Made by a program: the position numbers and the translations under genes. Below, piece by piece: positions 16,305-17,990 of a stretch of DNA of 64,000 nt. The notes under the pieces were generated by a model. It saw only the letters and a list, made by a program, of their open reading frames with translations. It was not told the DNA's origin and did no database searches. Location of the stretch: NCBI RefSeq assembly GCF_014280235.1, contig NZ_CP047940.1:372001-436000 (forward strand), given 5' to 3'. How positions within the stretch are numbered: position 1 is the stretch's first letter; each line of letters starts with the position of its first letter. The stretch is from Cyanobium sp. NS01 (GTDB lineage Bacteria; Cyanobacteriota; Cyanobacteriia; PCC-6307; Cyanobiaceae).

Positions 16305-16406
16305 GGAGCCGTTCGTGGTGGGGCCATTGTGACCGCTGGCACATGGGATGGTGCCAGGGGCCGGGGGGGTGGTCACCATGGCGTTGCGGCGCATTGCGCC
16401 CATTTT

Positions 16407-16415
16407 GTGTGAGGA
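16407..16415 (+). promoter_or_regulatory. putative Yfr1 sRNA pairing site over the porin Shine-Dalgarno
   Basis: GTGTGAGGA is a perfect 9-nt complement of the 3' nine bases of the ultraconserved Yfr1 motif ACUCCUCACAC. It overlaps the only Shine-Dalgarno (GAGGA, 16411-16415), five bases before the ATG at 16420. Yfr1 is known to repress som porin mRNAs in Prochlorococcus by this kind of pairing. Yfr1 itself is not in this window. Confidence 0.6.
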
Positions 16416-16419
16416 TCCC

Positions 16420-17865
16420 ATGAAACTTTTCCAGCAACTGCTGGTTGCCCCCGCGGCACTCGGACTGCTGGCCCCTGTGGCCGCCACTGCTTCTGAGCTC
16501 AACTTCGACGGCGTCGACCAGTACGCCTCCCAGGAGCAAGTCACCAGCATCTCCCAGTTCTCGGACGTGCAACCCACGGATTGGGCCTACCAGGCTCTCT
16601 CCAACCTGATCGAGCGCTACGGCTGCGTCGCCGGCTACCCCGACGGCACCTACCGCGGCCAGCGGGCCATGACCCGTTTTGAAGCCGCTGCGCTTCTGAA
16701 CGCCTGCCTCGACCGCGTCACCGAAGTGACCGACGAGCTCAAGCGCCTGATGGCCGAGTTCGAGAAGGAACTCGCCATCCTCAAGGGTCGCGTGGACGGC
16801 CTCGAGGCCAAGGTGGGTGAGCTGGAGGCCAACCAGTTCTCCACCACCACCAAGCTTAAGGGCATCGCCACGATGACCCTCGGCGGCGCTGGCGAAACCG
16901 GCTTCGGCGACAACGTTACCGCGAACTACGACGTTCGCCTGATGTTCGACACCAGCTTCACCGGTAAGGACCTGCTGCGCACCACCCTGCGCGCCGGCAA
17001 CTTCGGTGACTCCGTGTTCGGCAATGGCAACACGGCCCTGGAAGTGGCCTTCCAGGAAGAGAGCGGTGCTGACTCCGTCGGCATCAACCGCCTCTTCTAC
17101 CAGTTCCCCGTCGGCGAGTCCGTCACCGTCACCGCCGGTGCCAAGGTCCGTCAGGACGACATGCTGGCTGTGTGGCCCAGCGCCTATCCCGCTGACACCA
17201 TCCTCGACCTGTTCACCTATGCCGGTGCCCGGGCGACCTACAACCTGAACCTCGGCGCCGGTGTCGGTGCCTGGTGGCAGAAGGATGGCTTCAGCATCAG
17301 CGCCAACTTCGTCTCCAACGAGAACGCTGCTGAGAATTCCTTCGTCGGCATCGGCGAGGACTACACCGTTACCGCCCAGCTCGGCTACTCGGCCGATAAC
17401 TGGGGCGCTGCTCTTGCCTACACCTACGCTGACTTCAACAGCTTCAGCAACAGCAACGTTGGCCTGAGTGCCTACTGGTCTCCCTCCGATTCCGGTTGGG
17501 TGCCTTCGATCAGCGTCGGTGGCGGTTGGTCTGATGCCCCCAGCACTGACACCTTCGGCGACACCGACAGCGACTCCTGGAGCTGGATGGTCGGCCTCCA
17601 GTGGACCGACATGTTCATCAAGGGCAACGCCCTCGGCATGGCCGTGGGTAGCGCCGGCCAGATCGGCGACGGCAAGTGCGGCACCACCGCTGCTTGCACC
17701 GGCGGCATCTGGGCCGACGGCGGAGAAGAGACCCTGGCTTACGAGCTGTGGTACAAGTTCCAGGTCACCGACAACATCAGCGTCACCCCCGCCTTCTTCT
17801 GGATCGAGAACAGCGGCGCCGACGACACCTACGGCGGTCTGATCAAGACCACCTTCAAGTTCTGA
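16420..17865 (+). CDS. SLH-domain outer-membrane porin (Som/iron uptake porin family)
   Basis: Major cyanobacterial outer-membrane channel. The ATG at 16420 gives a signal peptide (MKLFQQLLVAPAALGLL, cleaved near ATA-SE), an SLH domain (about 45-105: SQFSDVQPTDWAYQAL and GCVAGYPDGTYRG) that binds cell-wall polymer, a coiled coil (about 108-142) and a beta-barrel of about 330 residues ending in KTTFKF, a typical terminal Phe. Codon use is strongly biased (GGC, AAC, TTC), as for a highly expressed gene. The frame is open 24 codons further upstream but those lack coding character. Specific substrates (ions, iron, sugars) cannot be read from the sequence. Confidence 0.9.
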   Translation: MKLFQQLLVAPAALGLLAPVAATASELNFDGVDQYASQEQVTSISQFSDVQPTDWAYQALSNLIERYGCVAGYPDGTYRGQRAMTRFEAAALLNACLDRVTEVTDELKRLMAEFEKELAILKGRVDGLEAKVGELEANQFSTTTKLKGIATMTLGGAGETGFGDNVTANYDVRLMFDTSFTGKDLLRTTLRAGNFGDSVFGNGNTALEVAFQEESGADSVGINRLFYQFPVGESVTVTAGAKVRQDDMLAVWPSAYPADTILDLFTYAGARATYNLNLGAGVGAWWQKDGFSISANFVSNENAAENSFVGIGEDYTVTAQLGYSADNWGAALAYTYADFNSFSNSNVGLSAYWSPSDSGWVPSISVGGGWSDAPSTDTFGDTDSDSWSWMVGLQWTDMFIKGNALGMAVGSAGQIGDGKCGTTAACTGGIWADGGEETLAYELWYKFQVTDNISVTPAFFWIENSGADDTYGGLIKTTFKF

Positions 17866-17964
17866 TCGTCTGATCGGAACCGGGCCTGGCTCCTCACACC
17901 TTTCCAGGCCCTTCGTCCTCATTGCATTCAGGAACCACTCTTCACACCGTTGTTCCTCTGCTCT

Positions 17965-17990
17965 CCCCGGCCTTTGGCCGGGGTTTTTTT
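17965..17990 (+). terminator. intrinsic terminator of the porin gene
   Basis: A perfect 8-bp stem CCCCGGCC, loop TTT, GGCCGGGG, followed by seven T residues, 100 bp after the porin stop. Confidence 0.92.

Follow-up and report, generated by a model that had tools for sequence, protein, structure and literature searches.

The question raised by this stretch of Cyanobium sp. NS01 (64,000 nucleotides, hereafter the window) is whether the SLH-OprB gene lying in it, which encodes a major outer-membrane porin, is a target of the small RNA (sRNA) Yfr1 and whether the rest of its mRNA takes part in that control. Yfr1 is nearly universal in cyanobacteria and, to our knowledge, its wiring outside Prochlorococcus is hardly known. 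An earlier inspection of the letters alone (the sequence-only reading) had claimed that nine bases over the Shine-Dalgarno (SD) sequence of the porin pair without mismatch with the Yfr1 motif, extending to this genome the circuit by which Yfr1 represses the som porins of Prochlorococcus. In this study, we report that the leader half of the system is this known Yfr1-som porin circuit, extended to a Cyanobium-like genome, and that the 3' untranslated region (3'UTR, 17866-17990) of the porin bears the Yfr1 pairing sequence itself. The claim of an extended circuit is thus supported and incomplete at once, since the 3'UTR partner, noticed here as a minus-strand GTGTGAGGA match at 17891-17899, had been missed. 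We give about an even chance to the proposal that the hairpin holding this sequence is a Yfr10-like mimic of Yfr1, feeding back on porin translation by direct pairing with the leader.

The leader site GTGTGAGGA forms nine contiguous pairs with the Yfr1 motif CACACTCCTCACACC, exactly as had been claimed, while both flanks mismatch, so that 9 of the 11 motif bases are paired. It covers the sole SD of the porin, although the spacer between the site (16407-16415) and the ATG at 16420 is TCCC, four bases rather than the five given by the sequence-only reading. The nine-base-pair duplex of leader and Yfr1 was calculated at −14.2 kcal/mol, leaving a net −10.8 kcal/mol after the cost of opening the leader in a simple accessibility calculation. 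The nine-mer matches twice in the window, where 0.54 matches would be expected, and at least as many were seen in 9 of 100 shuffles. By count alone the nine-mer is not rare, its weight being carried by its position before the ATG. In this regard, the pattern GTGTGAGG-N(3-8)-ATG has seven occurrences in the 2.75 Mb genome; the GTGTGAGGA version accounts for four of them, one at each of the four porins, while the reversed control pattern gave zero matches genome-wide. The porin open reading frame is open upstream as far as 16348 and conservation starts at the ATG. In orthologous porin leaders the site is near-invariant, from Cyanobium and Synechococcus relatives to Prochlorococcus-like genomes, and a separate porin clade is almost entirely without a Yfr1-type leader.

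The existence of Yfr1 in this strain had only been supposed. It was found (RF01116) at G000:C1:1980257-1980315 of the same genome, scoring 60.2 bits (gathering score 38), and reads GCACACTCCTCACACCC. Absence of a Yfr1 gene and lack of conservation of the nine bases in orthologous leaders were the two outcomes that the sequence-only reading had named as refuting it, and neither was observed. Yfr1 was detected in 95 of the 121 family genomes analyzed. Where it was not detected, the leader site is kept in the complete genomes G039 and G078 and lacking in G093, G008, G063 and G025; given this discordance, the leader site is not strictly tied to Yfr1. In G039 and G078, Yfr10-type RNAs may serve, by analogy with what has been reported for SS120.

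The direct precedent is that of the som porins PMM1119 and PMM1121 of Prochlorococcus MED4, which have in common with the present case the motif and the leader position on the porin ribosome-binding site, the lineage being different (here high-GC and Cyanobium-like); the main text describing them mentions no Yfr1-like element in a porin 3'UTR (PMC6778093). In MED4, Yfr1 lowers a PMM1121 5'UTR reporter 4.7-fold in Escherichia coli (PMC6778093). The porin leader is thereby supported as a Yfr1 target whose expression would be lowered through the site, Yfr1 binding GUGUGAGGA and blocking ribosome loading as in MED4.

The 3'UTR holds two hairpins ahead of an intrinsic terminator (Table 1) and as a whole folds 4.9 standard deviations below shuffles. 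The loop of hairpin 1 contains 10 of the 11 Yfr1 motif bases, including the perfect complement of the leader site. With respect to the full Yfr1 11-mer ACUCCUCACAC, the loop has CTCCTCACAC, where the final G of the stem stands in place of the leading A; this 5' edge varies among relatives. The segment TCCTCACAC is accordingly complementary to the SD site of its own mRNA. The loop is unpaired with a probability of about 1 and its net pairing energy with the leader is −10.8 kcal/mol, the same as that of Yfr1, in a calculation which ignores that a 14-base loop may not permit all nine pairs simultaneously. The minimum free energy fold of the full porin mRNA leaves leader and 3' loop unpaired to each other, a loop contact over 1.4 kb being beyond what such folds model. 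Hairpin 2 is weaker and little conserved. The 11-mer CTCCTCACACC has two copies in the genome, one in Yfr1 and the other in this 3'UTR. About one chance copy of such an 11-mer is expected per genome (control pattern, one), therefore the copy number is weak evidence alone and the argument lies in location and conservation.

Table 1. Features of the porin locus (coordinates of the window)
Feature	Position	Strand	Remarks
GGCGCATTGCGCC palindrome/hairpin (5 bp, 3-nt loop)	16388..16400	+	Just 5' of the pairing site; shared by most orthologous leaders
GTGTGAGGA	16407..16415	+	Yfr1-family pairing site over the porin SD; conserved in orthologues
SLH-OprB porin gene, 481 aa	16420..17865 (TGA 17863-17865)	+	One of four paralogues in the genome
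Hairpin 1, GGGCCTGG-CTCCTCACACCTTT-CCAGGCCC	17882..17911	+	Perfect 8-bp stem
CTCCTCACACC, Yfr1 core in hairpin 1 loop	17890..17900	+	25 bases past the stop codon
Hairpin 2, AGGAAC...GTTCCT, Yfr1-like loop CTCTTCACACC	17930..17957	+	z −2.0; net pairing −4.1 kcal/mol
Intrinsic terminator, CCCCGGCC-TTT-GGCCGGGG then seven T	17965..17990	+	

Conservation of the hairpin is of an unequal kind, as relatives share the loop YCTCACAC but have entirely different stems (GGGCCGGA/TCCGGCCC, GAGCTCG/CGAGCTC, CCTGGCTGAT/ATCAGCCAGG, TTTTCGGCTGAT/ATCAGCCGAAAA, CTCCAGCGC/GCGCTGGAG and TTTCGGCGAAG/CTTCGCCGAAA). Since the first MAFFT alignments misplaced the stems, hairpins were grouped by loop length before covariation was counted. 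Two such groups showed two-sided compensatory changes at 6/7 and 7/7 stem pairs (13/14); all cells of these alignments pair, and slid controls fall to 56% or less. It must be considered that these alignments were chosen to fit a stem and that flank shuffling is the fairer test. By this test, the motif is held in a hairpin in 25 of 40 motif-bearing porin 3'UTRs (stem equalled by at most 5% of flank shuffles), on 18 different stems.

A covariance model built from nine hairpins was run on the 121 whole genomes at E ≤ 0.1 per genome. It gave 14 matches, 12 of them at most about 100 bases behind the stop codon of porins that have the leader; four of these are in training genomes and eight in untrained ones, this genome included. 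As up to about twelve chance matches are expected over 121 genomes at this threshold, the evidence resides in where the matches fall and not in their E-values. The other two matches (L160 and L164) are not at porins and were rejected as porin 3' hairpins, being probably due to chance. In one porin subgroup (L028, L031, L034, L035, L050 and L068), an unstructured CCCTCACAA(A) just before the terminator takes the place of the hairpin and reads as a truncated or altered form of the motif.

The 3' motif is associated with the leader. In a first set of porins, CTCACAC was found at most 130 bases past the stop codon in 31 of 72 leader-positive genes (shuffles 2.8, maximum 9) vs. none of 37 leader-negative ones. 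A non-redundant set of 145 porins gave 35/102 and 3/43, respectively (Fisher p = 0.0004, uncorrected for kinship), and two of the three leader-negative porins with the motif have the GTGTGAGA variant leader. On the porin tree there were at least seven changes of hairpin state at well-supported branches, which suggests that porin paralogues have repeatedly acquired or lost the 3' hairpin.

As to what kind of RNA element the hairpin is, Yfr1 itself exposes the motif in a single-stranded stretch flanked by two stem-loops, of which the 3' one is the terminator (PMC2190773), whereas Yfr10 displays it in a hairpin loop (PMC6778093). Hairpin 1, with the motif on top of a stem, has the architecture of Yfr10. 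A second Yfr1 was considered for the 3' element and rejected, given that the motif is in a single hairpin loop and not between two stem-loops, and that Rfam does not call it; a Rfam scan of the porin locus returned chance matches only. The Yfr10 family is also poorly conserved outside the motif (PMC6778093), as is the porin hairpin. However, Yfr10 genes as described are free sRNAs located upstream of Yfr2 in high-light Prochlorococcus, while the hairpin reported here is in a porin 3'UTR. In several marine genomes, extra copies of the 11-mer were found beside Yfr2, and many further ones correspond to the antisense strand of Yfr2. The idea that the known marine Yfr10 genes are porin 3'UTRs was consequently discarded, and the copies beside Yfr2 argue against a simple identity of the porin hairpin with these genes. 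An independent 3' sRNA transcribed from a promoter of its own was likewise rejected, as no sigma-70-type match was found near the 3' element.

The proposed mechanism is as follows. Transcription would run through the 3'UTR to the terminator, and the hairpin would act like a Yfr10-type sRNA, its motif being presented in the loop atop the stem. As part of the full-length mRNA, it would pair in cis or with another porin mRNA; alternatively, a stable 3' fragment ending at the terminator would pair with the leaders of its own and sibling porin mRNAs. If the loop pairs in vivo and pairing represses translation, the outcome would be negative feedback, more porin transcript bringing more repressor sequence. 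Several observations weigh against this proposal. Two thirds of the leader-positive porins are without the 3' motif, among them a paralogue of this genome and all Prochlorococcus-like porins read, and, owing to the kinship of the porin sequences, the association counts cannot be treated as independent. The lack of a sigma-70-type promoter near the element means that a free sRNA would need processing. Finally, the loop would pair with Yfr2 too, whose 5' end mimics the leader, so that the partner may be other than the leader. Paired changes in leader and loop were sought as a direct sign of cis pairing and set aside, the leader being nearly invariant and the flanking loop bases following consistently neither leader nor Yfr2.

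The paralogue just referred to (L003, G000:C1:144786-146234) is a 74% identical porin with a Yfr1-type leader; lacking the 3' motif, it could be a target in trans only.

The Yfr2 connection provides the strongest of the alternatives. This genome has a Cyano-1 RNA (L206, G000:C1:2502768-2502839), which we take to be of Yfr2 type, in keeping with its matching 5' motif; RF01702 (Cyano-2) is absent from the genome. Among the Cyanobium-like genomes examined (L236-L255), almost every one has GTGTGAGGAGTG at the 5' end of this RNA, a perfect complement of CACTCCTCACAC in Yfr1 that copies the porin leader and adds the Yfr1 complement as an extension. Here it has drifted to TTTGTGAGGAGTG, which is complementary to the porin 3'UTR loop over about nine bases. 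Since the 5' end of Yfr2 copies the leader, the porin loop is equivalent to Yfr1 or Yfr10 and can pair with both leader and Yfr2. In MED4, Yfr2 has a complementary 5' motif and relieves Yfr1 repression, and it is bound by Yfr1 and Yfr10 more strongly than the target ppa (PMC6778093). The 3'UTR hairpin could thus be a decoy which, by occupying the Yfr2 that neutralises Yfr1, frees Yfr1 to repress the porin, a feedback that would need Yfr1. The presence of the partner RNA and its affinity for such motifs speak for this explanation, which we nevertheless consider unlikely. The match between Yfr2 and Yfr1 is at least as long, so that one loop on an mRNA would be in competition with it, and the last C of CACAC, which almost every loop retains, finds a match in the leader and none in this genome's Yfr2. 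Moreover, the tie of the 3' motif to leader-positive porins is what direct feedback predicts; direct pairing is favoured because the motif follows the leader among porin paralogues. Either route would lower porin translation when porin mRNA is abundant.

Somewhat less probable still is that only the leader is functional, the 3' hairpin serving to stabilise the 3' end or to bind a protein, with a likeness to Yfr1 that is coincidental or otherwise caused. Hairpins ahead of terminators are common, many leader-positive porins do without the motif, and the 11-mer count is close to random expectation, all of which this explanation would accommodate. Coincidence fails to explain, however, why the 3' motif is almost never found in leader-negative porins, and a loop kept on rewritten stems, together with a whole-genome model scan that leads to porin 3' ends in genomes outside the training set, argues in the same direction. 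That the conserved leader is merely a strong extended SD unrelated to Yfr1, as its GAGGA and the retention of the site in G039 and G078 might suggest, is very improbable, because GUGUG lies outside the anti-SD match and yet is conserved as well as GAGGA, GTGTGAGGA stands before an ATG only at porins genome-wide, and the repression of som leaders by Yfr1 is experimental (PMC6778093).

Direct feedback by the 3' hairpin would have partial precedents. In icaR of Staphylococcus aureus, a 3'UTR motif complementary to the SD of its own mRNA blocks translation (PMC3868564), which is a precedent for action in cis; it differs in that 7 nucleotides (UCCCCUG) and RNase III cleavage are involved, while in the porin nine loop bases of a hairpin reproduce the sequence of a conserved sRNA that has a gene of its own. 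OppZ and CarZ of Vibrio cholerae are autoregulatory 3' fragments that repress their own transcript (PMC7398697) and thus a precedent for a released fragment, but they are freed by RNase E, and the pairing motif of the porin candidate is shared with an independent sRNA. Cyanobacteria do use mRNA 3' ends as sRNAs, as ApcZ of Synechocystis indicates; ApcZ is reported to link light harvesting and photoprotection, a gene and function different from those of the porin element (PMC8136909). The literature search found no description of such a porin 3'UTR hairpin in the sources covered, the supplementary list of other Yfr10-like RNAs (PMC6778093) being outside the search.

Some further traits of the porin leaders were observed. 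At the position of the GGCGCATTGCGCC palindrome, which may serve to stabilise the 5' end or as a DNA operator, paralogues have other short hairpins. In many paralogous leaders (second leaders of L121, L125, L137 and L163), an upstream CCTCA pairs with the TGAGG of the site (CCCTCAATTGGTGTGAGGA). The modelled fold places GGUG in the loop and may hide the SD locally; the folds of these leaders were no better than those of shuffles. In addition, a contig titled as a metagenome-assembled genome (MAG) of Bifidobacterium breve (L075) holds cyanobacterial porins with the conserved leader, and this record is probably mis-binned or mislabelled.

In attention to the above, a three-way RNA circuit is possible, which we put forward tentatively and at somewhat below an even chance: the porin mRNA, having taken up the pairing motif of a phylum-wide sRNA, would carry the target site at its 5' end and an sRNA mimic at its 3' end, with Yfr2 copying the target, so as to combine self-repression with a retuning of Yfr1 and Yfr2. 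The leader result gives a genome-specific set of Yfr1 targets, all four porins, in Cyanobium-like strains. If true, the 3'UTR hairpin would make this an unusual mRNA with a mimic of its own repressor sRNA, joining pairing between 3'UTR and SD with 3'UTR-derived feedback, and it suggests one route by which Yfr10-like RNAs may arise or spread.
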